Below, one piece after another: positions 3,920 through 53,589 of a stretch of DNA of 64,000 nucleotides. Every line of letters starts with the position of its first letter. The first letter of the stretch is position 1. Source of the stretch: Sordariomycetes sp. S80-01Y (taxonomy: Eukaryota > Ascomycota > Sordariomycetes); contig JAXQJY010000022.1 of NCBI GenBank assembly GCA_037042185.1, positions 558,001 to 622,000 on the forward strand. Direction: 5' to 3'. A model generated the notes under the pieces. That model did not search any database and was not told the DNA's origin. It saw only the letters and a program-made list of their open reading frames with translations. The position numbers were made by a program, and so were the translations under genes.

Positions 3920-6900
3920 TTAATCAAACACATCGGTGACATACCGAACATTCCGCAACCCGTCGAACCATTTCCTTGTTCCTTCCTCATCGTCACTGCT
4001 TTCAATCTCCAGCCTAAGCTTTATGATAGCCTCCTTGACCGACTCGCTTACGCCCCTGGAGCCACAGACGTAGACCTTGGCTCCTTGCTTCCACAACTCA
4101 ATAAGCCTGTCTTTGTGCTTCATCATCATGTCATCAACGTGCTTGCAACCCTCACTTTTCTCTGGATCCCGGCTAAAAGACCTGAAGACTTCGACGGCTC
4201 CTTGACCCTCCCACTCATCAAGCTGCGAGCGGTAGATGTCGTCCTGGTCAGGAGAGCGGCAGCCGAAGAACAGCATGGCGGGGGCGAGTTTGCGGTTGCC
4301 CGAGGAGAGCTGCATGGCGCGCTCTTGGATGAAACCGCGGAAGGGAGCGAGGCCACTGCCGGCAGCGATGTAGATGGCAGGGGTTGTCTCGGGGGAGGTG
4401 GGCATGCTGAACGCGGCGTGGGAGGGGCGGACTGCGACATGGAGAGTATCTTTCTCGAAAAGTGAGGCAAGGTAGGATGTTGCTACTCCGATGTGAGAGC
4501 CCTGTCCCGAAGTCGAAGGCTCATTGAGGACCGAGTAGGTGACCGTGACGTGTTGGGGGTTCCAGAGTGGTGATGAGGAAATGGAACTGGATGAATGTCA
4601 GTGGGAGAAGTGACAACAGGGAGTAGAATGTGCGCTTACTATTGACGAACCCGCATAGGCGGCATCATGGACAGGAAAACACCAATCGGGATCTCGATGT
4701 CGGGAAATCTCTCGAGAAGATCCAGCACTGAAACGCGCTTGGCTTTGACGTCGGCTTCGTATCCGTCGGACGCGAGTCGCTCAACTTCTGACTTGACCTT
4801 CTCGTCTGACACGAAGGACGCGATAGTAGAGATGTTCCTCTTTGTCGCCGGTTGCGAAAGCTCAACATATGAACCAAGAACCTCGTTTGCTGGAACAGAC
4901 GAATTGGTCGGCAGGGCAGTCATGCCACCGTCTGTCGTGATTTCGAGATGCACGTCCCGAGCGAGCCTGAAGCGCCGCATAGCTCTGTGAACACTCTCAC
5001 GAGGGTTGATCGGGAGAATGGCAAGATAGTCGCCAGCTGAGTAGGTCATCCCCTCGGGCAGCTTGATCTCAATATGCTTCTTGTCGCCGGATGGTGACAA
5101 TGACTTGGCATCGATGACGACAGCCTCCTTCACATCTTGTCTCAAAGTAGTCGGGCGAGGGGTGCTGATGGCGACGTTAACTCCGCCCTTTGTGCCAGCT
5201 GTTTTGTCACCCTGGGAGACGTTGAACCGGTCAGCCAAAGATGGCCAAAGGGTGGTATCTTCCCACGTCTCGAAGTCTGTAAAAACGTCTCCAGAAGAAG
5301 CATCGGCCAGACCCAAGTCTGCCACTCGGGTAGCACCAGCCCTTTCGAGCTCGCTGTCCACCAGCTTGGGAATGCGATGGTAGGTCTGCACCCAATCTTT
5401 GTGGCCGCAGCCGAAGACAGTGTAATTTACGTCTTTGAGCGCCTCAGCTTCGGAATCTTGAATCCAGGCGACGAAATGACCCGCGTTGTCCGGGGGCTGT
5501 CCTTCGTACGAGGCCGTGATAATGACCACTGGCTGATCCTTGGGTAGCGATCCCTTCGCGCTGTCCAGACAGTCGATCTTGGACGCACGGAAGCCGTGCG
5601 CAGGCGCATCAGTCGCAACTCTCTGCGCGAGGGCCTCGCAGGTGCCGCTGTTCGATCCGTAGAGAATTGTGACAGGGTGGCCACCGGTGCCTGAATCTTC
5701 AACGCTGGCGGCGGAAGCCTTTGCGGCACCCTTGGTCTGCCCGACCATTCCGGCCAAGCGATACTGCAGACTGGTTGGGTTAAGGTTATCTCTCAGGATG
5801 GCACGCATGTGCATATCCTTGGGCTTGATTGTCAAAGTCTGCTTGACGCCAAAGACATAGCCCGGATCCATGACGAAGTTAAAGTTCTGCAGTAAAACAG
5901 CCATAACAAGCAATGCCTCCTGCCAAGCAAAGGGCCGGCCAATGCAAGCACGCATGCCATTTCCGAAAGGCTTCCAAGAATTGGGGAACTCCTGGTTCAA
6001 TTTGTTGAATGGCTCATCCAGCATGCGCTCCGGCTTGAACTCCGTTGCGTCGTCGCCGAAGACTGCGGGGTCCAGGTGCGACTTGGCCAGAAGGTTGACG
6101 ATGACTTCGCCCTTCTTGACGGGGTATTTCCCAGCAATGAGAGTGTCTTCGAACGACTCGACCGTGAAAAGCGGAATCGTGGCGTTTACACGGAGGGTCT
6201 CCCGGAGAACACCGTTGAGATAGGGAAGCTTACTCATGTGCTCAACCGTTATAGCCCCCTTTCCAACGACTTCGTCGACTTCCTTCTGGGCCTTTTGGTA
6301 GGTTTCGGGGTGCTTCAGAAGCTGGTAGAACGCAAAAGAGAGCATCCCAGACGTCGTCTCGTGGCCGGCAATGAGGAAGGTGATCAGATTGTCCATGATG
6401 CTCTCGTCAGTCATCTTCTTGCCCGTCTGCTTGTCACGGCCCTTCAACATGGCGTCCAACAAATCATGACGATCTTCGTTGCCAGCACGTCGAGAGTCAA
6501 GGACACCACGTGCCGTGCTTCGCAGAACCTCAATGTCAGTGGCGAACTTTTCATCCCTGGATCGGTAAACGAAGTTCGGCAGGGGAGGCCGCCTTGGGCG
6601 CTCTCCAGCTTCCGTCAGGAAATCGCCCATAGCCTCGATGAATGGGTGCATTTGCTCGGAATAGTAGCTGTTGAAACGGTAGCCCATCGAACAGAGGGCC
6701 AAGGTATCGAGGGTCAACCGCGTGAAGTCGTCTGTGACCATGATTGACGAGTCAGGTCCTGCCCGAGCCCATTTGAGAGCGAGTTGCGATGCGATGTCGT
6801 GCATCTCGTCGAACATGCTCCGGATAGACAGAGGCCCAAAGGCGGGCATGAGAACTCGATGTGCGATACCCCAATTCTCTTCGCCCATGAGTGCTGTGAA

Positions 6901-7264
6901 CAGGCCGTCATGGACGCCATTTCTTACTTCCTTGAGCCCGTGTCAGTTATCGTGGGTCATTTTCCGCAAGATGCCACGTACGCCAAGCGCTGAGTTTACG
7001 CTCTTTTTGAACCGCTTCTCGTCACATGTTTCGTTGACGATATCTCTTGTTGAAACAACCACGAGGCTTCTCCCTGGGAATCTTAACCGGTAGATTTCAC
7101 CTGGCCGTCATTAGCGCTGTGCCTTTTCTGGCCAAAATGAATTAAGTACCGTATTGATCTGCAAGGGACACCAGGGACCCCAGCGGAAATTCATTATCGA
7201 TAGATGTGATGTTGCCCAAGAAAGGCAGACCACGTGGCTCTGGAATATCGACGGTCTCTGCCAT
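3920..7264 (-). CDS. CYP505-type self-sufficient P450, fused to NADPH reductase
   Basis: Four exons (7264-7150, 7100-6982, 6930-4640, 4586-3920) give 1063 aa, close to P450foxy (CYP505A1, about 1066 aa). The N-terminal heme domain has the I-helix AGHETTS (about 266-272), ETLR of the ExxR motif (322-325) and the heme loop FGNGMRACIG with axial Cys at about 407. An FMN flavodoxin domain follows (TILYGSNSGTCEAL, about 499). Then come an FAD/NADPH ferredoxin-reductase domain with RQYSISSSPLWNP across the last splice junction, AAGSGLAPFRGFIQER and GCRSPDQDDIY, and the C-terminus VTDVFD. CYP505 enzymes carry out subterminal hydroxylation of fatty acids or related chains without a separate reductase. 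No N-terminal membrane anchor is seen, as expected for this soluble family. Every catalytic motif is present, so it looks functional. The neighbouring regulator and Kelch gene may form a small cluster with it. Confidence 0.95.
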
Positions 7265-33780: not shown

Positions 33781-34869
33781 TTAGACAGCTGTGCCGGCAG
33801 GGTATTGTCCGGTTGCGGCAGTTTGATTGTGACTAGCAGGAGTATCGTTGTAACCAGAAGTAGCCTGCGGGTAGCCCGCAGTAATACCAACACCACCGCC
33901 ATTGCTTGGAGCGCCGGCGCCGGTCGGTTCGGAAAATCCAGCACCAGCCCCGACTCCTGGCCCGCCGACGACGCCAGGGCCCTTCTCGGGGAAGGTACCC
34001 GTGGTCCTTTGAACTCGTCCATACTGGGTGAAGTGTAGACCCATCAAGCCGTAGTCCCATCTCTTCGAGAAGAAGAGGAATGCAAAGGCGAGTACAGGCA
34101 GCAGGAGCACATCAAGGATGCCGAAGTAGATAGCCATCTGTGTGACGCCTATGACGTTTCCACCATCGCTGACAGCCCAAGCAATTGGATAGAGCAACCA
34201 GAGGAGATTGGCGTAGCCTGCAAGTAAGGTGTAGTCGCGCCTAAGTGTGAAACGCTTGCTAGCAGACAAGCCAGACAACATGATCTGGTATGCGAGGAGC
34301 AGGTAGGCCACGGTGCCGAAGGTGAAGAACCCCCATTTATAGCGAGAAGGGGTATAGGCACCGACGAGGTAGGAGAGGACCCAGATCCAGGCCAAGAACA
34401 CGTTGTAGACGATGGTCGCCCAGCTAACGCCACTAGCGAGGCCCAGCGCGATGACAATGGTAGGAAAGGCTACCACCCAGTATATGTATTTTGCGAAGAA
34501 AACTTGGTATGTTGCCGCTTCACTGACACGGAGGTGCTGCGCTACGACAGACCAGCCTAGATCACTGGCCATGGCGAAATAGGCGATGGCGCCAACAAGG
34601 AGGGCGATAACGAAGAGATAGTGGAAGATGCGCTCGCCATTTCGGGGACGCAGGCCGAGGACGGCATAGACGAGCTATATGGGGCTTAGTAAGTGCTCTT
34701 GAGGATCATTTAGGGTATCCAGGTCCAGGAAGTAACGTACGAATGAGAGGGCAAAGACGGTGGTGACAGCCCAGAGCCAGTGAGAGCCGTTCAGGGTGAG
34801 TGAGCGTGCTCCCCCAGGAGGGTTCACGTCGAGAACATTGTCTCTAATCTGCATGAACATGAGACTCAT
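33781..34869 (-). CDS. opsin-related seven-helix membrane protein (HSP30/MRH1/YRO2 type)
   Basis: Exons 34869-34741 and 34674-33781 encode 340 aa. An N-terminal DNVLDVNPPGG tail is followed by seven transmembrane helices, including SHWLWAVTTVFALSF, ERIFHYLFVIALLVGAIAYFAMASDLG, and PSRYKWGFFTFGTVAYLLLAY. RYKWGFF in helix C and GILDVLLLPVLAF in helix G identify the microbial-rhodopsin fold. In bacteriorhodopsin the helix G pattern D-x3-K carries the retinal Schiff-base lysine. Here D231 is kept but the lysine position is Leu (about 235). The protein therefore belongs to the retinal-free opsin-related group, which in fungi includes heat-shock or stress-induced plasma-membrane proteins. The C-terminus is a Gly/Pro/Ala-rich cytosolic tail. 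The start at 34869 (MSLMFMQIRDN) could instead be 34860. Confidence 0.9.
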
Positions 34870-39704: not shown

Positions 39705-40013
39705 TCAAGATATTGGCTTAGCGCCGTCTACTATAGCTTTCTCTATGGCGCCCAGTACCGGCGACTTGCTATCTTTTGCCTGAGCATTCTCCCATCCCAT
39801 TTCTCTGTGAATTGACGCCACGCCGACAGCGCCACACTCAACGCCCAGTAAAACAGGGTCAAGCGCTTGACGAAAGTACAGTGTTCTTCCCCGTTTGCGC
39901 AGCATGGGAGAGTTGCTCCAGAGTTTTGTCGAGCTTCCAGCCCCAGCCCAGATATCGAGTGTAGCATCCCCCGTGTTTCTCTTCTGTAAGACCATGATCT
40001 TCTTTTGGGACAT
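39705..40013 (-). CDS. hypothetical ORF of 102 aa, unrecognised
   Basis: An open frame from MSQKKIMVLQ to VDGAKPIS. The amino-acid mix looks like a soluble protein, with an alpha/beta-like stretch (LLGVECGAVGVASIHREMGWENAQ). The frame stays open for about 15 codons before the first ATG (IPEFSKHQPAFLN), so a further 5' exon is possible. I do not recognise the family. It could be a small gene, a 3' exon or a relic. Confidence 0.3.
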   Translation of the reverse strand: MSQKKIMVLQKRNTGDATLDIWAGAGSSTKLWSNSPMLRKRGRTLYFRQALDPVLLGVECGAVGVASIHREMGWENAQAKDSKSPVLGAIEKAIVDGAKPIS

Positions 40014-40325
40014 ATTAAGAAACGCGGGCTGATGTTTGGAGAATTCCGGAATGAACGTGGTTCAAGACGTAGGCCTATGCGAACATACCTCAGGGATGTT
40101 TACGGTTCACTTCACTTTATTGTGACGTTTATACGGCCCATTAATTCATATCAACGTTACATTGGGCAGCCTCTATAAAAATCAATTTTCGAGACGATAT
40201 AATCGGAGGACCATGGTTATATTCCTAGCCCGGAGTTCACGTTTGGTACCAATTATACCAAGTATACCGGTCGACAAAGAATATTGAACTCACAAAAACG
40301 CTTCCTTCAATCTGGAGGTTTCGCG
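40014..40325. other. gene-free stretch
   Basis: A gap of 312 bp in which nothing is seen. It might hold a 3' exon of the secreted-protein candidate at 40326-40595. Confidence 0.35.
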
Positions 40326-40595
40326 TTAGATACGCAAGTCGATGATACAGGATTGCAAGAACCTACTTTTCAGTTCAAATTGATTACCTTCCGGACCACG
40401 CTGCAGAGAGGGGAGACACGAGTAACAGGAGCCATCACGCTGAGATCCGCAATCCCAGCAGGGATCCTCTCCTTCGTCGGCGCAGGAAGATGAACAACAG
40501 GGTGTTCCGCCCGTAATCATGGTTTCGGAGTTTTGAAAAGAAGACACTGGCTTGAGCACAACCACAAGAAGCAACAGTGCGTTAGTGGATTTCAT
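40326..40595 (-). CDS. candidate small secreted cysteine-rich protein (effector-like)
   Basis: 89 aa from the ATG of MKSTNALLLL at 40595. A good signal peptide is visible: a lysine near the start, the hydrophobic core NALLLLVVVL, and a likely cleavage after PVSS. The mature part is short and cysteine-rich, with seven cysteines in the first half (TPCCSSSCADEGEDPCWDC, then GSCYSC) and one near the end. This profile fits fungal small secreted proteins, including effectors and antimicrobial peptides. A possible donor (GAAG/GTAATC) after QRGPEG could lead to a downstream exon, so the C-terminus is uncertain. It sits in a gene-poor region, where such genes are common. No family match is claimed. 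Confidence 0.5.
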   Translation of the reverse strand: MKSTNALLLLVVVLKPVSSFQNSETMITGGTPCCSSSCADEGEDPCWDCGSQRDGSCYSCLPSLQRGPEGNQFELKSRFLQSCIIDLRI

Positions 40596-41798
40596 CTTTA
40601 AACCTGTGGCCAAGGTCGGTCAGGTATTCTAGCAAAGGGGAACCCAGTTCAAACTGTCTTACTAGAGCGGCATTGAAATAGCCGTTCGTACTCCACCAGG
40701 TAATTCAAAGCTTCTCATCGATCGATATGAGACATTTGGAACATTCGCGATCCCCTTGGCTGCAGCCGGGTAGGAATACTTCTAACAGGGGTCCCGAGCT
40801 AACAAGATGGCTCCAAGACACAATAATCTAGTCATAAACCGGTAATGGGCGGTGATAAAAGTACCAGAGTTGCTTGAGATACGCTAAGCATCCCGAGGAG
40901 GTCACAACCTTTCTTCAGCATTTCTCCATTTTGTGTCCAGACGTACGATTCAGTTTATCGTCGATCTTCAGGGGCTACGGATGGTTGTTTAGGCCGTTGC
41001 GGTGCCATTAAAGTCGGTAGAACACACATTCTACGTGTTCTGAGAAGCAAGGTTCAAAGCGCGTGGTTATGTTTCAACGGTTTTCCCATGTGACAGTGAG
41101 ACGTGATACGGGCGACAGACGTCTTGTCTCCTTTGCTGCAGTCAGCGGGACGTGGACTCGGCGAGGTCCATCAGGGTGGTCACATCGATTGGCTACTCGG
41201 CAGCGTTGGCTGCAATAAGAACAGATGGGTTTATTCAATTGGCTAGGCTTTCTTAGTTCATTAGCTAGACCGCGGAAGTACATAGCGGCGTGAACGTCAG
41301 ATTGGTTCATTTCGGTCAAAGAGGGCCGACTTATGCAAGGTCGGAAGGAAGGGTGTGAAGCAATGTGACATTGGCTAAAAGGGATTTATTGGCCATAACC
41401 ATAGAAAATCAACACATGAAAGCTCGGGAAGGCTGATGGGATGTTTGTTCATGCATGGGCCAAATGAAAACACCACGTATGAATCTCATTCCGCTTCCTG
41501 CGGCATCTGCGCACACTTAGCTCTTATCTCCGCAGTTCTATTGCACTTTCACCAACCCAGTGTTGGCTGCATTCGTATTAAAGACATGAAGTTTAGCCTT
41601 TGCAAAATCAAGGCTAAGCAAAACAGACGCACACCCGACGACTCACAGCCAAACATAGGGTCGGACCGACAAGTGAGGTTATTACTGACTGCTTTCTGTG
41701 AAATCAGGGGGCACGGAGCTTTGTGGTGTTTCATTCTGGGTTATTACTTAAAGAGACCCTGCGAATCACGTCAATCCTTAGCTTCTCCTACAAGGAGG
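40596..41798. other. gene-free stretch
   Basis: About 1.2 kb upstream of the secreted-protein candidate. No gene, repeat or RNA is evident. Confidence 0.4.
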
Positions 41799-42587
41799 CT
41801 ACATGAAATCATGCGTGATAACAGGCACTAAGGGGTAATAAGGAATGGCCAGCTCTGAGCCTCCAAGCGCCCGCGACTGTGGTAACCATAGCGTCAACAA
41901 CATGCTGGTTCTGTCAAGTGTCGGCTCTAGAAGGAGGTTGCTGGAGATCAAGGCGGCGACTCCTGTCTCTAGTCCCACGGAATGGAGCGTGTGAGTAGCA
42001 TCAGCCGGTTCATAACCTCCCAACTTCTTGAAAGTCAACTGGAGTCCAATATCCCTCGTATCTGGGTTGAACAGAAGCCATACAGACGCGGCACCATCAT
42101 TCTCGGCGGTTCTCTTGAGATTTTGATAGATCGAACGAAGCTTCGACTCAGCGTCGACATCCTCACACCTCCATATCTGCAGCCGAACAACTGCATTGGC
42201 CTCAATTGGCGCGAAGCCATGAGCACCAATCACCTTCCACACCTGAGACTTTACGGATTCGAACATCGGTTGCTCAGTGAACTTGACAGGCGGTTCACCA
42301 ACTTCAAACTCCTTGTTCGCCCACTGTACGTAGTCTTTTGCATTCTCATAGGTGTCAAACAAGTAGGAGCCTCCGGTGAGAAGCTTGCCGGTAACTCCGT
42401 CATAGAGGTAGGGGAGAAACTTAAGAATCATGCCGGGCCGACGGGACATGGTTTTGCTGTCGAGATACTGGCAATCAATGAACTCTTGTAAAGACACTCC
42501 GAGACCCGCGACAACGATATCGATGATGGTACAGCCTTCGGCTGCGATCTCACCGGGCTGGTAGCCCAGGATATTTTGGTTCACCAT
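41799..42587 (-). CDS. conserved-looking hypothetical protein, 262 aa
   Basis: A single exon from MVNQNILGYQ to PVITHDFM. It starts with hydrophobic TIIDIVVAGLGVSLQEF, then has a ferredoxin-like alpha/beta pattern (MILKFLPYLYDG, GGSYLFDTYENAKDYVQWANKEF), a second alpha/beta half (NAVVRLQIWRCEDVDAESKL, ASVWLLFNPDTRDIGLQLTF), and a helical end. The YLFDTYENAKDYVQW segment resembles the strand-helix of dimeric YdhR/ABM-type alpha+beta barrel proteins, but this is a pattern resemblance only. No signal peptide is likely, as the first hydrophobic stretch is preceded by about 19 polar residues. Function unknown; the sequence composition makes it a likely real gene. Confidence 0.65.
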   Translation of the reverse strand: MVNQNILGYQPGEIAAEGCTIIDIVVAGLGVSLQEFIDCQYLDSKTMSRRPGMILKFLPYLYDGVTGKLLTGGSYLFDTYENAKDYVQWANKEFEVGEPPVKFTEQPMFESVKSQVWKVIGAHGFAPIEANAVVRLQIWRCEDVDAESKLRSIYQNLKRTAENDGAASVWLLFNPDTRDIGLQLTFKKLGGYEPADATHTLHSVGLETGVAALISSNLLLEPTLDRTSMLLTLWLPQSRALGGSELAIPYYPLVPVITHDFM

Positions 42588-42791
42588 CGGTACTGGCCAT
42601 GCGGATCAGCAATGCAACAATCATCAGCCTTCTTTTCGGGTAATTACTCGTTGTTTCCAATGGAAGATGCGCAAAGTGCAGGGTAATTGTCGAAGTCGGT
42701 TTCAAGACGCGGATCTGGGGCGGTCGGCTCGCTACTCCTTTATACTCTTAAGTCGAGAGCTCAACGCGGCCACTAACGCATCCCGTCAGCA
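42588..42791. other. promoter region of the 262-aa gene
   Basis: A short gap in which nothing else is seen. Confidence 0.3.
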
Positions 42792-43060
42792 CTACGAGGC
42801 AGCGTAAGCAGCCGCAAAGCCATCAAAAAGCTTATTCTCAGACTTCTGTAGATCTGGCCACCTTCGGTCGAGCAGGTCGGCAATTCGACTGATCATCTCG
42901 GTGGGCATGGTCGCCATGCCGTGGAGCTCTGAGTTTGACATCTTGTCAGGCTGAGCTTTCAGACGCATAGAATTACTTGGCGAGGCAGGATGAAGCAGGT
43001 ACGTCTGAAGATGTCCATGGTCCAACGTGGACAGTTGAGCCAGTGGACGATCCAGTCAAG
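42792..43060 (-). pseudogene. coding remnant or terminal exon, unrecognised
   Basis: The frame LDRPLAQLSTLDHGHLQTYL ... ELHGMATMPTEMISRIADLLDRRWPDLQKSENKLFDGF ... AAAYAAS is open for about 87 codons to a TAG and reads like a folded, mostly helical protein. It has no ATG at its 5' end and is preceded at once by an in-frame stop. A different frame upstream (from an ATG at 43192) also looks coding but ends shortly after. This could be a terminal exon whose upstream exons I cannot place, or a gene broken by a frame change. Family not recognised. Confidence 0.35.
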
Positions 43061-43956
43061 CCTCCGTGCAAAGCTCATCTTGTGCCGCCGGGTAGATGGT
43101 TGCTCGATGACATCCTGCAGTGTGCATAAGTTGAGGAGACACAAGAACTCAGAGACACATGCTTTCTGACAGTGGTTGCTTGCGTGCTCCACACTGCAGG
43201 CTATGTGTGTGGCTGGCGACTCAACGATTGGCAGCTATGGCTGAGCGTGTTTGGCTAAAGTAGTCACGTGTAATAAAGTACTCAAGAGTTGAGATTTTCT
43301 GTCTATCTAGTGTATCTCAGTGGTCCCTAAATTGTTTGAAAGCTGATAGCGTATTTCACAAGACACGGCACCCTTACCGAGCGAATTCTTAGCTTCAGAC
43401 GGATTCCCCCTTCTTTTCACTCCTTACATATTGTCTCGATGGATACGCTGCTCTCCACTGGCGCCCGGGCACTCGTCGTCTCTGGAGCTCAGCCGTGCGC
43501 GTTCCAAGCAGAACGCGTCCAATCAGCTCATGATGGTACTATGGGGCTTTTGCTCTCTCGCTTTCGCTAGTGCTCAAAGCTCTCCCGAAACTAGCGTCTG
43601 CTCATGAGCCTATATGGCCCAACATTAGGGGGACGGTGTCCGAAACGTTGCCTCCTACCAACGGATGACTGTATGCTATGCTTGATTAGCGTGTGGAACG
43701 TCATGGTAGTGGTTCTACTCAAGTTAGAGTGGGGTAATGACTGAAGGGCCCCGAACAGTCTTTGGTGATGCAGACGGACATTTTGGGACACCAAGGCCTC
43801 TTTCTTTTTATGAAATTTGAGGACTCTGCAATGTACTCACTAAACTTTCACCGTAGTTAAACGCCATTATGTATATATTTGATGTTGATGTGTATCTCTA
43901 TGTGAATTTAAACCATCACTCCACGGCGCGCACGATCGCAGCTCTTTCCCTGTCAC
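43061..43956. other. gene-free stretch
   Basis: Contains TAGTCACGTGTA (E-box CACGTG) near 43262, a 12-mer that occurs again near 46299. No gene is seen. Confidence 0.35.
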
Positions 43957-44890
43957 TTACACAGGCGCTGAATTATACTTTGAAGCTTGCTTTAGATGTT
44001 CAGGAGTTCCTTGAACCTGCATACCTTTGCTTCCATATTTTCGGTAGGCGACCTTACGGCCACAATTATTGCAGTAGTGAGCTAGATGATTCAGCCAGTG
44101 GAAGATGTAGGGTGCAAGGACACCGCACAAGGTTCCAAAAAACAGTCCGGCTGCAAGAACGCTAAAAGTACATTAGTCCAGGTGGCATCGAAGGAAGTCT
44201 GGTCCATACTGTGTCATGAATGACGGGTGCTTCTTGACCTCGGTTAGTGACGCCTGTCGACAAAACGGACAATCAATCATTTCAGGGTAGTCCCCGAGCA
44301 GGTGCAAAGGAGTCACGGTTTGCAACCCCTTCGCGGGAACCCTCATAGTAGGCTGTTGCACATAATTGTGTCCGGCTTGATTGTGTGTGGTCCCTGGCAG
44401 ATGCTGGTTTTGTGCGGTCACCGCCGAATTCTGGACGATGGGCCTTTCGTTCCTTTGAGGGGGATTTCCCGAATCAGTTTCGTTCTGAAACTCCGTCGTA
44501 GGCACTCTCATTTTAGGTTGTTGCCCGTAGTCATGACATGCTCGATCGTGCGTGGTCGGTGGTAGATTCTGGCTTTGCGATGGTGTCGACGGGTACTGGA
44601 CGATTGGCCTTTCGGCGGTCTCGGGAAGATCGCTCGGAACAACCTCTGGGTAGGAATCGTAATCGATTGCGCGGGCCTCGTTGGTTCTGCAAGTGTTAGG
44701 CTTCGGCTTCCGTAGTTGAGAGTGCCTCGGCGGCTTGGTCGACGAACTCTAGCCCTTCTTGGTGGTGAGCCACTGAGTGTCTCGTTACAGGCGCTTGTTC
44801 AGGCTCGCATGCTATTTTCTCCTCAGGAATTGAAGACGACGATAATATCGGGATCCCCGATGAGCTGAGCTCTCGCGGTGGCAGAGACAT
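43957..44890 (-). CDS. LITAF-type zinc-ribbon membrane-associated protein with internal repeat
   Basis: The 3' end is well defined: a large exon ending at 44210, an intron 44162-44209, and a last exon 44161-43957. The LITAF-like domain starts with VTPLHLLGDYPEMIDCPFC, has a central hydrophobic hairpin (LAAGLFFGTLCGVLAPYIFHW), and ends with AHYCNNCGRKVAYRKYG. Thus the CxxC pairs sit on either side of the membrane-inserting stretch, as in LITAF domains that bind zinc and associate with endosomal or plasma membranes. The N-terminal region has two gap-free 43-residue repeats. The 5' exon is uncertain. I place the start at 44890 (MSLPPRELSSSG), with a phase-0 intron ending near 44671. Neither the donor nor the acceptor (GAG) is strong. 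Confidence 0.7.
44320..44613 (-). repeat. two-copy in-gene tandem repeat (55-codon period)
   Basis: Copy 1 (44613-44485) and copy 2 (44448-44320) each encode 43 residues starting ERPIVQ and ending MRVP followed by TTEFQ or AKGLQ. By eye, 24 of 43 positions are identical without a gap. The copies are separated by a 12-residue spacer. Confidence 0.8.
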
Positions 44891-47834
44891 GGTTTTTCCG
44901 ACTGGTGCCTTCAAGTCTACAGGCGCCGAGCTTAGTCAATGGGTGCGCGCTGACAGTGTAGTTTGGACGTTTCCAATTCGCTCTCGTGACTCTAGTTACC
45001 AGGCGGGTCGTTATTGTCCTTTTTTTTCAGCGTTGGGGAGTGATAGGTAGATGGGTGAGTAGTTGCGGTAGAATTGAACCCAAGATTTTAATAGTAGGAG
45101 TACCTGACAATCGCAACCCGGCGACCCCAGCAGATGGCACTCTGTAGGGATCATGATCCTACGCGGGGTGGCATTGGAAACGCCACTCAGTTTGGCTTAG
45201 TCCACAGTACTAGTGGTTCTAATATCGAAACCCCAAGGGTAGCGAAGGGGCATTCGCTGCGGTACAGGATTAGATCCTCGCAAGTTCCAAAATTACTGTG
45301 GTCCTTCGGGGGCTGGATTTTAGCGTACTCACCGCCTTGCTCCGAGACCCTCGGCTTCGTCTTCGATACCCCGCGGGCACACAGTCTCAATAGGAGAGCG
45401 AGGTCTGCTAGTAAAATAAGTATCATGGGTAGGCTTGTAAGCTAAAAGGTTTAGGGCAGAGGAAATGCCACCCAGTTGGGTAGCGAATCCCACTGAGTTA
45501 CGGAGGAATACGATGCCTGACTGACTGTCATTTGCAGGGTTCAATGGGTTGCAAATGTTCTAAAAATAGTAAGAATTGAAACTATACCAGTGAACGGTCT
45601 CCATTAATTAAATATAAGATGACCTTTGTGGATATCATGCGCCACACCTCGGAGCTATCCATGTATCATAACGGCGCCACGCTGGCGCCCGCCCCGCTAG
45701 GCCAACATGACTCCCAACAAGTGCGAAAGAACGAAATTTATCAGACCCTGGAGGAGGCCAGATGCGCTAAGCTATTTATGGCTCCAGGTCTTATCAGGTG
45801 TATCGGCCCGTGCCTCCCATCCTGGAAACACCCCCTCGTGGAGCCATAGCTGTCCGCTGGTAGGATCAAGGGAAATAGGATGAAAGGGTATTGTGGTGAA
45901 GGCTTGATTTTACCAGATGCACGAGGCATATGGTTATTATAAATCCGACTATACTTATTAATCTGTTCTTTCTTAAATTAAACGCGAGCAGTTTATAGCG
46001 CCTAGCCTTTCAATGATAGTCGCGACCACTTCGACCGTCAACATGAGCCACGATATAGCTCAACACTCAGTCGCCTTTTCGACTAAGCCCATACAAAGAT
46101 ATGATGGTGTAGTCACATGATGTATGGAACTAGATATACCAGTGAACCATGCATTCTAGATATGAGTAGTGTTTGCGTGTGGTCACTGTAACGAGTAGAG
46201 TCTCGTTGTGAGCCAATAAAAGTGCTCACAGCGAGCAACTAAACAGCTTGGTGTAAGTTGGCGGGTCGGTCGTGGGTGAAGAAAGTGTAGGTCCCACATA
46301 GTCACGTGTAGCCCGCATGGCGGGCCGTAACAGCCTGTGACTTCTCCTGTGGAACTCTTTCAATATTGCAAATGGGAGAAGGATCATTGATGTTTTGCTG
46401 TCTTAGTTTTACAATCTCGTTTTCGTTTTCGCTGCCGTGCTCTGTCTGCATCACTGCCACGCCCTAATTTACTACTATAGCCTGCCCCACTCTCCAGTTG
46501 TCTTCAAAGCGTGGAAAGCGTCCGCACTATATATTGCGTATAATTTGGAGAGCCTCCACCATTTCATCCAGATGTGTGAAACGCATCGTCGTCCTTGTTA
46601 ATCTTCTTCTGATCAATTTGGCCTTCACATTGCTGAAGCATTCTAGCATGAGGCCGCAAGCAACTTCGTCCAGAGGTCTACGTGCCTCCGTGGCCGACGT
46701 TGTGCCTCGCAATTTGACGTGGATTATTACAGAGTATCCCGACTTATTTGTCATGGCCTGTGTCGTGACATTTGTGTTAATAATGTTTTGTCTGGAGAGA
46801 TTGCGATATTTCCGGTTGAGGTGAGTCGAAAGCAAGAAAGCAAAGTCTTCTGAGTATCATTAGGATTCTTGGCGCTAACATGGGAACTCAAAAAGCGGGT
46901 TAGCGTTGTATCCGGTAACGAGAAGATCGCCGATGGGACGAATTGTCGTGGGTTGAAATAAACTGCCCAAGAGAATCTTCGTCACATCCGGGGTTGGCAG
47001 CTGCCTGGCTCGTGATCTCATCTGGTTTCCTCAATTCATAGCATCAGGTGGCTCGCTTCTATTCACATCACTACTTCTGACATAGATGATAGCTATGGGG
47101 GTTGGAATCTTGACTTCGTATTGGCACTAAATATCGCTCTCAAAATACGTACAACGACTATTCTTCTCCGCCGGGATCGTTTACCACGCGTTCAATTGGA
47201 TTTCTGAAAGGCTCGCGATGCCGAGTTGGTCCTACCCATATAACTACAGCTCGGCATCCCAAAGGGGAAGATGGCGCTGCATCGCGAATAGAGACTGGAT
47301 AGAGTCGGTGGACTCGACATCAGCAGCCAATATGGGTATGAGTATCACATACAAATCAGTATCATGGAAAAGAAATTGCATAAGTGGTAAGAAATATGGC
47401 TGAACAAGTCTCTCACGTGGAAACCACACGCTTGTCATACGCCAAGCACCTGGTTCGACAGCCCGTGATTCACATGAGCGCTGACCTATGCTACCGGGCT
47501 ATTTCTATTCGCAATTGAATCCCCTCGAGCAAACCTGTTCAACACAAGGGTCTCTAGGTAGCCGCAGCAGGCACAAAGATCCTCGTGACAGAAAGACCAA
47601 CTTGTTGAGAATTTAGAGAGCTAGTGCATGAAATAAGTAGCAGAATTTGATTTAAGGATCTTGGCACAGCGGAAATCCAGATTTGAGAAAATGAACGAGA
47701 TATGCGAACCAGTGATATGAAAATCCTTCTATCTCTTCATGACGTATTGGAAGTAGTAAGTGTAAGTCCTGAACCATTTCACGAACATCGTTCTTCCGCT
47801 GGACGATTCCGCCTGAAAACATTGATTCGAAGTT
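44891..47834. other. long gene-poor stretch
   Basis: Nearly 3 kb with no gene that I can support. A short perfect inverted repeat GCCCGC-ATG-GCGGGC lies at 46311-46325, next to an E-box CACGTG. Parts around 45540-46000 are AT-rich. A plus-strand frame at 46648-46824 (MRPQATSSRG, with a hydrophobic LFVMACVVTFVLIMF) is possible but unsupported. Confidence 0.4.
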
Positions 47835-48883
47835 TCAATCCGAACCAGAGGCAGAAACACGCGGATCGTAGGTCAATGGAATATCCTGAGGACTAGTTTC
47901 GATTAATTCATCAACAATCGAACCAATGGTTGGGCCAATAGGAACATTGACTGGCTTCCAGCCCAACCAGGCTGGTAGTCTCTCATTTCCTATACACATT
48001 TAGTTATGCATTGATCTTTAGAGTGAAAACTTCACTTGTGCTGTGACGTAATGGTTCGGGAACGGCGGTGGCTTACGAAAGAAATACTCAACGAAGTTTC
48101 TGTTCGCTGAGGGATCATCCGGATGACCAAACACCGCAAGTATCATTGCATTTTCTCCCATAATCACTGGGATCGCGCCTTCTGTGATTTCAAACGAGGG
48201 ATTTGCGAGACTCATGTCGTAAGCATGCCTTGAGCGAGCAATCGCCAAATCGGTTGCGTTAAATTGGTCGGCATTGGGGAGATAGCTCAGCATGTTGTCG
48301 AAAACTCTCTTATCAAAAGTATTGGACGGATCGAAATAGATATCATCGCGGGATAGACTTCCATCATGTTCTATTACTCCGTGGGTATCGTGAAGCATGT
48401 CGAGATCGAAAAACTGAAGAAGCAATCAGGTATCGTTAAGCCAGGTAGAGGATGAATCTTACAGTGGAGTTTGGAATTGGATTGACAATGATACCATTAT
48501 CAAATATACCTGCAGCAAACTCGGGATCAATGTTTAACGCTTCGACGCAAGCCTTGACCAGCTGAGGTCGAGTGATGCCTCGGCCGTTGTGATTGACAAA
48601 GTCATGGTTGGCAAGTGTATTCATGAACGGACATGGCGAGCGAACTATGCACGGGGATTCAGTCAGCTTGATATATCATCGGATAGATATTGGTGTCATT
48701 ATGAATCTACTCACCATCGTTTTTACCCGGCGCTTCCCACAGAAAGTGCTTGAGCGTGAGGCCGCTGTGTTCTAGACTGGCCTGACTTCGCACCGCCAGA
48801 ACATCTTCCAAGGGCTTCACAAAATGAGGGAACGCTTGTGCGAAAGATCCCAAGAAGATAAGGAGCCCCGGACGGAAAAACAT
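47835..48883 (-). CDS. secreted heme-thiolate peroxidase (short unspecific peroxygenase / chloroperoxidase family)
   Basis: Exons 48883-48715, 48644-48463, 48413-48077 and 47989-47835 encode 280 aa. A signal peptide is present (MFFRPGLLIFLGSFAQA, cleavage before FP). The family's heme-ligand motif PCP is in VRSPCPFMNTLANHDF with axial Cys61. It is followed by GRGITRPQLVKACVEAL. The Mg-binding acidic motif EHD (E132-H133-D134) is in GVIEHDGSLSRDD. The C-terminus FFRNERLPAWLGWKPVNVPIG is typical of Peroxidase_2 proteins. The length matches the short (group I) peroxygenases. These use H2O2 to oxygenate or halogenate many substrates outside the cell. All key motifs are intact. The neighbouring divergent gene encodes a secreted flavin oxidase that could supply H2O2. 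Confidence 0.93.
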
Positions 48884-50239
48884 GTTGAAGAATGGGAGAT
48901 GGTGCTTGTTGGCTGGTTAAGAGGTTGGTGTTGGGATGTACCGTGTCTATGCCTTTGCAACATGAAAACAAACCTCAGCAGACACGGGGCAGAAACGTAT
49001 GGCCAATTTATATGTTATGTGATGGCTCGATCACGGACGAGCATGTTACGAATCATGCCTTTATCAACGTAAGCATCATGGTGTCTCTGTCGGAGAAACT
49101 CACGTACCCCAGTTGCATCACTAATTGCCGCAAAGCAATAGGTCAGAGCTGAATCAAAGAACAAGGTAAGATGTCGTAGATCAGGTGGCGCAGTTAAGAT
49201 TGCGTTGTCCTCGGTACCTATATTGTACAGCAAAGCCCTGTATTGGATTTCGTGGTAGGTGTTCCAAGGAGATGCTACTACTCAAATGCCGAGATGGGGA
49301 CCAACAATGGGTGGCTGATATCGCGTCATTCCAAGCACCTTGTTAAGAGTCCATAAGGAAACGCTAAAACAGACCTAGCATATCTGTGGGATCTGGGGTG
49401 AAAAGTAAGGCGTGCGTGCGGCAAGGCTTTGCACGTTTTAGTGACAGCTGACCTCTAGGAACCCAAGGTCAACATCTTGTGAACACTCGCAGTTACTCAG
49501 ATTGCTTTTGGAGTATAAATTGGCGCCTACTGTGCAGTTCCAGTGCGATACGATGGAGGACAGCTGACTCGTCCAGTAATCGGTTAATGGTACATGGAAT
49601 AAACAGACGCACGACCCTTCGGCACTTGGCTTGACATAGCTGCTGCACCTATACTCCAGCAAGAATAATTACAAGGGCACGTGCCTCTGGTACGTTGTCT
49701 TTGAAACGTCCACTAAATCCTGATCCATGTCGCTACACCATTTAGCGAGGACGACGACGAGAACGAGAACGACGACGAGAACGGGAACGGGAATGGCTTG
49801 ATGATGCGAATATGCGATCCCGAAATTACCTAATCCCACTCTGCGAAACTCGCACTTGGCCCGTAACCAATCCAGATGAATCGGTTTCGAGATGTAGATT
49901 AGGTTTTCCTGCGCCGCACGACGCGTCCGCAAATCGCATGGAGCCCTTGTCAAGAGGAGTAGCAGAAAGCCGCCAACACGAGCGCTAGAAACTCAGCCCC
50001 ATCGGATCAGACTCTCGCATCCAGCTAGCATTGTAGATCCCCAAATATTGGAAGCGCAGCCACAGTAAGTTCGCGTAACCCTAGACCGTCGGTGGTAATC
50101 TACCTACCCTGGATTTCGCGTTTAGGCACGCAGATGCAATGCCCAACTAGTAGGTTGCAGCACATGTATATATACCGAGGCGTGACTCTACACTGGAAAA
50201 TTACAAACTACGAAAATCCAATATTCATTGTTATACATC
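48884..50239. promoter_or_regulatory. divergent region, peroxygenase / hydroxyacid oxidase
   Basis: About 1.36 kb between the two divergent starts. A TATATATA at 50167-50174 lies 66 nt upstream of the oxidase ATG. A microsatellite-like GAGAAC/GACGAG run spans 49748-49795. No gene is seen between them; short frames here are unconvincing. Confidence 0.45.
49748..49795. repeat. imperfect GACGAG/GAGAAC/GGGAAC microsatellite
   Basis: Short purine-rich hexamer units are repeated imperfectly over 48 bases. Similar runs occur at about 52577-52596 (ACGAGA units) and, on the opposite strand, at 54352-54379 (TTCTCG units). Confidence 0.7.
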
Positions 50240-51656
50240 ATGTTTGCAGCTCTCGTTTTTTTCCTACTCTTGCAATCACAGGAGGTACTGGCCGCCTTGC
50301 CGTTCCTGAATGCCCCAGACACGGGGTAAGTCTTTCGTTTGGCTGTGGTCGCGTGAATCTAACGCTTTCGTAGGATTGAGGAAGCCTTGGATTTCCCTAC
50401 CAATGGCTCACTTCCAGGTGTTGATCGTATGCTGGGCCTCCCGGATTTCGATTACGTCGCAGAGAAGGTGTTAGATTATCAGTCCTACGCCGCCATTCGC
50501 CACGGTGCGGGAAGCGAATCTTCGTATAGACAAAACCTCGAGGCTTTTGAAAAATTTCGCTTCCGACCGAGGGTTATGGTAAACATCACTGGTATCGACG
50601 CTAGTCTTAGGTCAGAGCTTTATGATACCTATTGAAGGTGCTGTTCATAACGTTGCATTAGGACTACCATTCTAGGCCGAGAATTCGCACAGCCTTTTTT
50701 CATCAGCCCCTTCGCTCAAGCTGGATTGACGCATGTGGGAGCGGAGGGCAACCTCGTCAAAGCCGCGGGAAACGCTAATGTACTTTATATCGTAAGTTCT
50801 CGTCTCGTTACTGAACACAGTCGGGATTGCTTAGTTCTCCTGCCAGTCGTCTCAAACCACGTCGTTGACGATGGACCAAATCACGGAGCAAAAAACACAA
50901 CCAGACCAGGTCATTTGGCAACAGGTAGGACACCCACAGCTGCGCTATTCAGTGGGTTCTTCGGCTGAGCAGACAGGTTTCTCTCATGAATTTAGACGAT
51001 AAGGCGCCTATGGAGCTCTTTGCCGAGATTGAAGCCGCTGGTCGAGACGCCATCATCCTCACGGTCGATTCAGCAGCAGATCGAACAACTTACCGGGCCA
51101 AGAGACTATTGGAGGACACAAGTCTTGGGCGAGACCCTCGATACACATTTATGACTTGGGACTTCTTCAAGCAACTCCAGACCATGACAAAGCTTCCCAT
51201 AATCCCTAAAGGGATCCAGACGGTTGAGGATGCCAGAAGGGCCGTCGATGCTGGGGCACGTGCGATCTTTCTATCCAACCACGGTGGACGTGCACTCGAT
51301 GGCTCCCCATCCCCTTTGGAGATCGCCTGGGAAATACACCAAGAGGATCCCGACATCTTTGAAGAAGTTGAGGTGTACGCTGACGGCGGCATACGTTACG
51401 GCACCGACGTATTGAAGCTTCTTGCGCTGGGTGTAAGAGCTGTGGGACTTGGGAGGCCGTTTCTCTATGCCAACCTTTATGGACAAAAGGGTGTTTCTAG
51501 GGCCATCAAACTACTCGAGTTAGAACTATCTAGCGCGGCTGCCAACGTAGGTCTCGCTGAGATTCGGGATGTCGATCCGTCCTATGTAAGTCAATGCTTG
51601 TGATCTGATCAAAAGCCGGGTTCTGATAGAGTTTGCAGATACGAGAGAGGAAATAA
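50240..51656 (+). CDS. FMN-dependent 2-hydroxyacid oxidase with signal peptide
   Basis: Exons 50240-50325, 50374-50610, 50662-50791, 50835-50924, 50977-51585 and 51639-51656 give 389 aa. The N-terminus MFAALVFFLLLQSQEVLA is a signal peptide. The catalytic domain shows FDYVAEKVLDYQSYAA, FAQPFFISPFAQAGLTH, IILTVDS, the FMN-contacting lysine in PIIPKGIQT (about K259), and the active-site motif SNHGGRALDG (His283, Arg286). DGGIRYGTDVLKLLALG and GLGRPFLYA complete the phosphate-binding barrel. Relatives are glycolate/lactate oxidases and lactate monooxygenase; oxidases release H2O2. Usual fungal and plant relatives are peroxisomal or mitochondrial. This one ends IRERK, has no peroxisomal SKL signal, and appears secreted. 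SNHGGRALDG differs from the common SNHGGRQLD. Confidence 0.9.
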
Positions 51657-53589
51657 ACTCAACGCCCTCTTTTAGAACGTACGGAGCAACACAAAACCTG
51701 GGGGAGACCCGATGAGTTTGTGGATTTGTTAATTATAAGCACTGTCTCGTTCAGAGGCCCTCTCTCACGACCCTCGTAATCTGCACCAAAGGAATGAGCA
51801 GATCAAGTGTGCTCATTTCATATCATAGTCAATGTCGAGTTTCATGTTTGACCCGAGAACTTACATCGAAAATTCTATTTAGAGAATTCAGATTGCTGCT
51901 CTACCTCTACTCATTATCGCAATAAGATTTCTTGCCTCCCTTGAACACCTCGGCGAGTATAGGATAACTCCGACCAAACTTGATCCTGCAAATATTCCTT
52001 ATCTGTCAAGGTTACTTTGGAGATTACTCGATTCAAGGATCTGACAATCTGATCCCACAGGTCTTACAGTCGCTGCAAACTCGTCGGCTGCCGCATGTTA
52101 AACATGTTCCTGAATAGGGTCGTTCATTGCATTGGCATCGGCGACACGGGCCCAGTCACCAAGTGTAAATAAGCTTTCGCTTTCTGTCGCAAACGAGACA
52201 ACATTGGAAATCTCTTGAAGTTTTGCTCTTCTGTGTATCCGGACCGTACTCTCAGCAGTTTCGTCTCTAACTTTTGGAACTTCTCAGTTGCCCATCATTA
52301 TGGCAGTCTTTCACCACTGGGAATAAGAACAAGAGATTGATACCACATGAAAGGGATGATTAAAGTTTATTAAGGTAGAAATATCGCTCAACTCTTAAGG
52401 GCATCTCAGCACCAGCCCCCACCCCTCAACGGCTAATCCAAGTTGATCTATCAATGAACAACCTGATCCGGTAGGCTACTGAGACAATTGCATACGGCCT
52501 ACTGGTAGGCGAATCCTTCCATACCAGTTGACCTTTCGCGAGGTGCGGTCCCTGGCCCCGCAGCATATGGCGATAACGGAAACGAGAACGAGTACGTCTT
52601 GCCCGCTCGCAAGTCCCAAGCGTTATATTAGAGACGCGGAGCAAGACCAATTTCTGCTAAACGTTTGTGCGCAATGTTCGTTTCTCTTCATCTTCATTTG
52701 CTTCTCATTATTTGCTGAAATGCTTCCAGTTCACGACAAGCAGGATGGGAACAAGCGCGACCCGGCCACTGCATCCAAATTGTTTTTCAATGAACGACCA
52801 CGGCGACAAACCACCAACCGAATCCAACTGGGAAAGAGAGATTGATGAAGTGGAACAGATCGGAACTCTAGGTGGGCGGAGTTGACGACCATCAGCATCC
52901 CATGAAGTGGTATCTATCAAAGAAATGGACCAACATTGCAGTCATCGCTCCACTCACGATCATCCTGTGAGCTTTCATCGGATGCCATGGAACGGGGAAG
53001 GGTCAGGGTGACGGATTCGTTCCGCTTCCTCCTCTCATAGACCTTTGGTATATTATGTGTCGAAAACCTAACTCGTCTGTCCTTGACACTACGAGCTAAC
53101 GTCAGACAGGATCCTTCCACGTTCACTCCAGCCGTCCCAAAACCATAGTAGATTCAACGACTATTCGTCCATCGTCACGAGATTTGTTATATCCACCTAC
53201 TTTGCAAAACATGCTGCTGGGCCTCTGCTTTTCGACTCTATGAGCGAAACATAGAGGCAAGCTTGGCTTTATCACCCGAGGAGCATCGCATTTGTTTCCA
53301 CGTAAATTGGGGCAGCGTTCAGCGACACCAATGGTATGCTTTTGACGTTTAGGTTTCCGATGAGTGTATTTGAGTCTGCCGCCTTTGTAATACAGAAGAA
53401 GGCCGGTGTTGTTGGTATCCTTGAGGTGATCATTGTGCGCAAAGCCTACGAAAAACGCCAGCCAACATCCGACTGATAGTAGCATGGACGCGTCGAACCG
53501 TGCTGTCATCAGACCTGCTCTCTTCCGGTCGATGGGACTTGTTTTCACCACGTCATTGAGACAGCTCTCGCGCCGGATGTGGGTATAGC
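51657..53589. other. gene-free stretch
   Basis: About 1.9 kb. An ACGAGA microsatellite lies at about 52577-52596. A minus-strand 142-codon frame at 53123-53551 looks like chance and has no family. Nothing else is called. Confidence 0.4.

Follow-up and report, generated by a model that had tools for sequence, protein, structure and literature searches.

A divergent fungal gene pair encoding a short peroxygenase and an FMN-dependent hydroxyacid oxidase homolog that lacks two conserved active-site residues

Within the 64,000-nucleotide stretch of Sordariomycetes sp. S80-01Y analysed here (the window; G000:C5:558001-622000 of a 30.87 Mb assembly in 16 contigs), two divergent neighbouring genes encode a short-type heme-thiolate peroxygenase and a member of the flavin mononucleotide (FMN)-dependent hydroxyacid oxidase/dehydrogenase family, called the oxidase below. 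The reading that we find rather likely is that of two secreted oxidoreductases side by side, in which the flavin enzyme is shifted in its substrate or its chemistry and a link through hydrogen peroxide (H2O2) is possible without being needed. Of greatest interest is that this FMN enzyme, probably a secreted one, belongs to a clade in which the catalytic Tyr and an aligned Arg are both gone; its signal peptide is of less interest. A sequence-only reading of the window had described an extracellular two-gene module, with a peroxide-making hydroxyacid oxidase supplying the peroxygenase. The divergent arrangement, the leader-like starts, the intact peroxygenase motifs and the missing SKL tail of the oxidase hold, but the leader of the oxidase proves not to be exceptional, and its production of H2O2 is doubtful.

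Results

Residues kept and lost in the oxidase

The oxidase matches FMN_dh (PF01070) with 272.4 bits against a cut-off of 24.9, over positions 1-349 of the 350 in the profile, and the same Pfam scan, made with a 389-residue version of the model, gives no heme-domain match. Its relatives with structures are flavocytochrome b2 and hydroxyacid oxidases, and these are also returned by Foldseek for the predicted model of a homolog (P0001; best E 1.4e-26). The closest relative among the matches listed (120 of the 2818 found) is a protein of Alternaria alternata, 89% identical. In the numbering of flavocytochrome b2, which is used for comparison throughout, the oxidase keeps Gln252, Thr280, Asp282, Lys349, His373 and Arg376; we take His373 to be the catalytic His, Lys349 the flavin Lys, Asp282 the Asp partner and Arg376 the carboxylate Arg. 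Three other positions have changed: Tyr143, Tyr254 (the Tyr of the catalytic dyad) and Arg289 (the second substrate Arg, on loop 4) align with Ala69, Ser179 and Thr215. Among the 120 listed homologs, Arg376, Asp282 and Thr280 are kept in all, His373 and Lys349 in 119 each (one gap each), Arg289 in 105, Tyr254 in 104 and Tyr143 in 103.

In a tree of 41 rows, consisting of 39 of the listed homologs, the reference and the window protein, the oxidase falls into a 15-row clade with starred support. This is a quick tree with support from SH-aLRT only (a Shimodaira-Hasegawa-like approximate likelihood-ratio test), and the columns whose changes were counted stayed in its alignment. Tyr254 and Arg289 are absent from all 15 rows of the clade, while Tyr143 is kept in eight, lost in six and a gap in one; on the tree, a single change suffices for Arg289, and Tyr254 needs at least two and Tyr143 at least five. 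The loss of Tyr254 and Arg289 is common to many species and is therefore not an annotation error in a single gene. In the same genome, both residues are retained at six of six readable FMN_dh paralog loci, eight having been fetched from at least 16 merged places, with two (L004 and L006) unreadable at these sites. The tree neighbours of the window oxidase come from Ilyonectria, Neonectria and Clonostachys (starred).

Two side observations concern this clade. The proteins of Colletotrichum acutatum and C. salicis (P0009, P0010) have Leu, not Ser, at the lost Tyr254 position. The oxidases of the window and of A. alternata nest inside the Ilyonectria/Neonectria/Clonostachys group of the quick tree (5-row set starred), which would fit a transfer between fungal classes.

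Implications of the losses for oxidase chemistry

In the excerpts of work on p-hydroxymandelate oxidase (Hmo; PMC6677016, PMC6778850), Tyr128, Arg163, His252 and Arg255 anchor the substrate, and activity is lost in R163A, H252F and R255A. With the Y128F exchange the enzyme becomes a monooxygenase-like oxidative decarboxylase, Y128F and Y128C both convert mandelate to benzoate, and R163L oxidises the amide of mandelate, a neutral hydroxyamide. By analogy with these mutants, the window oxidase is changed at both of the positions where such shifts in chemistry and substrate are known. The loss of Tyr254 and Arg289 across the clade, set beside the chemistry of the Hmo mutants, makes it doubtful that the enzyme would form peroxide from lactate or glycolate, and the proposal of an H2O2-making hydroxyacid oxidase is likewise doubtful, though a neighbouring Arg that does not vary may compensate.

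The flavin enzyme combines the FMN hydroxyacid oxidase fold, with flavin and base residues kept, and membership of a clade without the catalytic Tyr and the aligned substrate Arg. This clade-wide loss makes a substrate other than small free 2-hydroxy acids, or an altered reaction, most likely. The enzyme would most likely act beyond such acids, for example on a neutral hydroxyamide, an ester or a bulkier hydroxy compound; alternatively, it might carry the reaction further, and not all peroxide would then be released. The clade amounts to a natural experiment, since both residues whose mutation in Hmo shifts chemistry and substrate in the excerpts above, the Tyr and the aligned Arg, have been lost in it; its secreted fungal enzymes may catalyse an FMN-dependent reaction that has yet to be described.

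Leader peptides and secretion

Both spliced models, with GT/AG at all introns, begin with the N-termini given in the sequence-only reading. The oxidase starts with MFAALVFFLLLQSQEVLA, followed by ALPFLNAPDTG, and its best 11-residue hydropathy is 3.0; the peroxygenase starts with MFFRPGLLIFLGSFAQA and reaches 1.9, a weaker leader than that of the oxidase. A leader rule requiring a Met start, 14-32 residues, a hydrophobic core and small residues at the cleavage site is passed by 104 of the 111 oxidase homologs (among the 120 listed) that can be anchored by an aligned Pro-Phe at the ALPFLNAPDTG motif. Because so many pass, the leader is the norm in this fungal family; it had been regarded as exceptional, and the signal peptide as the mark of a special oxidase was rejected. 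By-eye counts among 25 aligned peroxygenase homologs give 12 with a hydrophobic leader followed by F/Y/I-P-H; most of the others have a variant (FSH or FPQ, for example), and the N-terminus is absent from a few. The C-terminus of the oxidase reads IRERK, without an SKL tail, as noted before. Signal peptides on both proteins are thus backed by conservation among homologs as well as by the leader-like starts, and both proteins are probably secreted. According to an excerpt of PMC9138132, secretion is predicted for most family I and family II peroxygenases of the Dikarya.

The peroxygenase

The peroxygenase, a short form of 280 residues, matches Peroxidase_2 (PF01328) with 149.5 bits in the Pfam scan, and its relatives in the PDB are solved peroxygenases (best 7o1r, E 3.4e-46). 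Cys61 of its PCP motif is presumably the heme thiolate ligand, and we take Glu204 to be the acid-base partner. With the domain present and the Cys, the EHD motif and the Glu intact, the protein looks functional as a short peroxygenase, in agreement with the sequence-only assignment. As a typical short extracellular type, it would transfer oxygen from H2O2 to an organic substrate. An excerpt of PMC8772875 names the PCP motif of peroxygenases, reports that MroUPO attacks the alpha carbon of fatty acids and terms the natural functions of unspecific peroxygenases (UPOs) almost unknown.

The best relatives among the matches listed are from Truncatella angustata (58%) and Eutypa lata (67% over three quarters of the length). 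The window protein stands beside Truncatella and Eutypa (SH-aLRT 89, not starred) in a quick tree, again with SH-aLRT support only, of 35 of the 157 listed matches (93 plus 64 new), the reference and the window sequence.

Layout of the pair

The spliced models place the genes where the sequence-only reading had put them, as divergent neighbours on opposite strands and 1356 bp apart (Table 1). An earlier acceptor at oxidase exon 4, which yielded the 389-residue model with four residues more, was dropped in favour of a later acceptor supported by homologs. A genome search that skips common words found no second copy of the gap, which does not prove a single copy; it returned one stretch of 72% identity elsewhere for the 2.8-kb left flank and no sign of a repeat origin in either the gap or this flank. 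In a quick scan of the gap, Yap1, STRE and CGG-CCG motifs were not found, no shared regulatory motif stood out, and one CreA-like site is present. The region around the pair, at about 40000-52000 of the window, appears gene-poor by eye, and the three 4-kb blocks that make it up are those of lowest GC content in the window (0.483-0.489), slightly under the other blocks.

Table 1. Positions of the two genes and of selected residues in the window
Feature	Position	Strand	Basis or remark
Short-type heme-thiolate peroxygenase gene, PF01328	47835..48883	-	4 exons, 280 aa, GT/AG introns; Pfam; PDB relatives
Peroxygenase exons	48883-48715, 48644-48463, 48413-48077, 47989-47835	-	Spliced model
Predicted signal peptide of peroxygenase, residues 1-17	48833..48883	-	Sequence; leader conserved in homologs
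Cys61 in PCP	48631..48633	-	Cys in every covering row but P0136 (by eye); P60 and P62 nearly invariant
Glu132-His133-Asp134 motif	48363..48371	-	Invariant, 26 aligned sequences
Glu204	48153..48155	-	Invariant, 26 aligned sequences
Intergenic region between both start codons, 1356 bp	48884..50239	.	TATA-like sites at 49514 and 50167
FMN-dependent hydroxyacid oxidase/dehydrogenase family gene, PF01070	50240..51656	+	6 exons, 385 aa, GT/AG introns; homolog comparison; Pfam
Oxidase exons	50240-50325, 50374-50610, 50662-50791, 50847-50924, 50977-51585, 51639-51656	+	Spliced model
Predicted signal peptide of oxidase, residues 1-18	50240..50293	+	Sequence; 104/111 anchorable homologs
Ala69, in place of Tyr143 of flavocytochrome b2	50492..50494	+	Alignment
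Ser179, in place of Tyr254 of flavocytochrome b2 (catalytic-dyad Tyr)	50980..50982	+	Alignment
Thr215, in place of Arg289 of flavocytochrome b2	51088..51090	+	Alignment; Arg213 two residues upstream
Lys255, retained Lys349 of flavocytochrome b2	51208..51210	+	Alignment
His279-Gly-Gly-Arg282, retained His373 and Arg376 of flavocytochrome b2	51280..51291	+	Alignment

Conservation of the adjacency

Linkage in other species was approached through a proxy, the occurrence of oxidase and peroxygenase of one species on equal-sized contigs, which can neither show nor exclude adjacency; the sizes are those of the longest contig per 90% cluster, and each cluster names few species. Comparison of the 120 listed oxidase matches with 93 listed peroxygenase matches yields three such pairs, in Paraphoma chrysanthemicola (1,253,888), Colletotrichum incanum (406,136) and Botryosphaeria dothidea (3,813,356). 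No further coincidence comes from the 64 new peroxygenase matches of a profile search (120 listed of 774). None of the three coincident oxidases belongs to the window's 15-row clade; those of Paraphoma and Colletotrichum lie in its sister group, and the B. dothidea coincidence, on a 3.8-Mb contig and with an oxidase outside the 24-row clade, was not counted as linkage. The proteins of Leptodontidium sp. 2, also in the sister group, are on unequal contigs (P0015, 746833; P0216, 123356). Fusarium decemcellulare and Neonectria ditissima, which both combine an oxidase of the clade with a named relative of the peroxygenase, likewise have unequal contigs, but these are short (9-123 kb) and the point is weak. 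Against two Alternaria oxidase matches, no Alternaria peroxygenase is named among the peroxygenase matches listed, a weak sign with one or two names per cluster.

Genome context and neighbouring genes

The genome holds at least eight Peroxidase_2 loci and, after merging, at least 16 FMN_dh, 21 GMC and 40 FAD_binding_4 places, all of them lower bounds; for FAD_binding_4, 40 of 46 rows were used, and the other six by eye adjoin used ones and would merge. The glyoxal-oxidase-like family PF09118 has one match in the genome, away from the Peroxidase_2 loci. Two of the other Peroxidase_2 genes have flavo-oxidase-family genes at some distance. One (L017-L018, G000:C1:212000-228000; here the C1 locus) has two GMC genes at about 5 and about 10 kb and an AMP-binding gene nearby, and the other (L019-L020, G000:C10:1052000-1068000; here the C10 locus) has a FAD_binding_4 oxidase-like gene about 10 kb away.

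Ten open reading frames (ORFs) flanking the pair were scanned with Pfam, the nearest being 2.8-3.1 kb away. An aldo-keto reductase, a major facilitator superfamily (MFS) transporter, a short-chain dehydrogenase/reductase (SDR) and a bacteriorhodopsin-like protein are recognised, a LITAF-like match remains below the cut-off, and five ORFs are without a match. The aldo-keto reductase, MFS and SDR genes lie at 54.5-62.8 kb of the window, as does a Zn-cluster-like regulator recognised by eye and without a Pfam match. The bacteriorhodopsin-like membrane protein is encoded at 33784-34674 on the minus strand (PF01036, 53.5 bits). A long frame at 4639-6942, also on the minus strand, contains a P450 domain (G000:C5:563860-564918) and by eye runs into a flavodoxin/reductase-like part, like self-sufficient fused P450s.

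Discussion

Points against the preferred reading

The analysis shows the gene models, the families, the residue losses and, through conservation, the leaders; for the pair we infer secretion, a substrate class beyond small free 2-hydroxy acids and the lack of an obligate coupling. The differing tree neighbours of the two proteins speak for this reading, and several points weigh against it. The equivalence of Hmo Tyr128 with Tyr254 and of Arg163 with Arg289 follows from the family conservation stated in the excerpts and from the spacing (35 residues in both), not from an alignment. Two residues before Thr215, an Arg (Arg213) is found in the window protein and in 12 clade rows inspected, and it could take over the role of the lost Arg289; the AlphaFold2 model of the A. 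alternata homolog cannot decide on such a replacement, because it is unreliable at residues 209-234, where the predicted local distance difference test score (pLDDT) is below 50. Arg376 and His373 are retained, and their equivalents are needed for Hmo activity in the same excerpts. The loss of Tyr143 weighs little, with this residue still present in 8 of the 15 clade rows, and its equivalent is a Phe in a working long-chain hydroxyacid oxidase according to an excerpt of PMC10153336.

The genomic arrangement also speaks against two unconnected proteins. About 0.025 Peroxidase_2/FMN_dh neighbours within 2 kb are expected by chance from at least 8 loci, at least 16 places and 30.87 Mb; this figure is post hoc, as notice would equally have been taken of many other pairings. 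A flavo-oxidase-family place lies within 10 kb of three of the eight Peroxidase_2 loci (the window pair at 1.8 kb, C1 at 5.1 kb and C10 at 9.7 kb), where uniform placement would predict about 0.44; P450 places lie within this distance of one of the eight in a rough by-eye control with 92 of 168 P450 candidates scored. The enrichment is suggestive; the comparison was made post hoc and on the assumption of uniform placement, with lower-bound lists and with families coarse enough to take in dehydrogenases.

Other explanations of the pair

In an account that we consider unlikely, an acid outside the cell would be oxidised by the secreted oxidase, and the adjoining secreted peroxygenase would spend the resulting H2O2 on a second substrate. 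Adjacency, both leaders, the kept flavin and base residues and the intact peroxygenase motifs are all in keeping with such a supply of peroxide, as are the enrichment just described, with its P450 control, and the equal-sized contigs of P. chrysanthemicola and C. incanum. Set against these are the loss of the Tyr254 and Arg289 equivalents across the clade and of Tyr143 in the window, the lack of an equal-sized-contig pair in the window's clade by the proxy, the unequal contigs of Leptodontidium sp. 2, and the trees, which put the two proteins beside different taxa (Ilyonectria, Neonectria and Clonostachys for the oxidase; Truncatella and Eutypa for the peroxygenase). The AMP-binding gene with the two GMC genes at the C1 locus points to a metabolite cluster over a peroxide device. 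A cluster at the window itself, in which the two proteins would be tailoring enzymes of a small secondary-metabolite or catabolic pathway and perform successive steps on one compound whatever the fate of the peroxide, strikes us as quite improbable. Some peroxygenase homologs are named after stcC, the peroxidase of the sterigmatocystin cluster, and the regulator, reductase, transporter and SDR genes at 54.5-62.8 kb would suit such a pathway; on the other side, no polyketide synthase, nonribosomal peptide synthetase or terpene core was recognised by eye in window ORFs of at least 110 aa, which with ten flanking ORFs scanned by Pfam is no proof of absence, and the stretch of 2.8-3.1 kb separates the pair from the nearest scanned ORFs.

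Chance neighbours without joint function in a gene-poor stretch are a serious contender, which we place somewhat short of even. The differing tree neighbours of the two proteins, the wide gap of 1356 bp and its content in the quick motif scan, one CreA-like site and none of the three other motifs, all fit an accidental arrangement. The low expected frequency, post hoc as it is, and the equal-sized contigs in two sister-group species argue the other way. The likelihoods given here do not add up to one, because the preferred reading, which concerns the proteins, overlaps with both chance neighbourhood and a metabolite cluster. A closer coupling is conceivable as a long shot: the peroxygenase would hydroxylate a compound at the position adjoining a carboxyl, amide or ester carbon, the FMN enzyme would oxidise the product, and the H2O2 released would drive the next round. 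Were this self-fuelling arrangement true, the pair would run on O2 with catalytic peroxide, and the pocket changes of the oxidase would fit the product of its neighbour, not lactate or glycolate.

Comparison with known systems

The window peroxygenase shares PF01328, size, the PCP Cys, Glu-His-Asp, the Glu and a leader with short (family I) UPOs such as MroUPO and the 7o1r peroxygenase. A peroxygenase of Truncatella angustata has been characterised (excerpt of PMC9322767) and is not equated here with the 58% match. The window oxidase has PF01070, the fold, His373, Arg376, Lys349 and Asp282 in common with the flavin domain of flavocytochrome b2 and with glycolate, long-chain hydroxyacid and p-hydroxymandelate oxidases. 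Unlike flavocytochrome b2 and these relatives, it has Ala, Ser and Thr for Tyr143, Tyr254 and Arg289, carries a leader and gives no heme-domain match in Pfam.

A described natural fungal pairing or cluster of this kind was not found among the titles and abstract openings listed from the open-licence literature. The locus offers a concrete case for asking what fungal peroxygenases do in nature and where their peroxide comes from. An engineered counterpart is described in an excerpt of PMC5768024, where a P450 peroxygenase and alpha-hydroxyacid oxidases form a one-pot cascade with internal H2O2 recycling. Like the window pair, this cascade joins a peroxide-using hydroxylase with an alpha-hydroxyacid oxidase; it is a laboratory mix of bacterial enzymes, whereas the window holds a natural gene pair known from its genes alone. 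If the self-fuelling arrangement were true, the pair would be the natural counterpart of this cascade.

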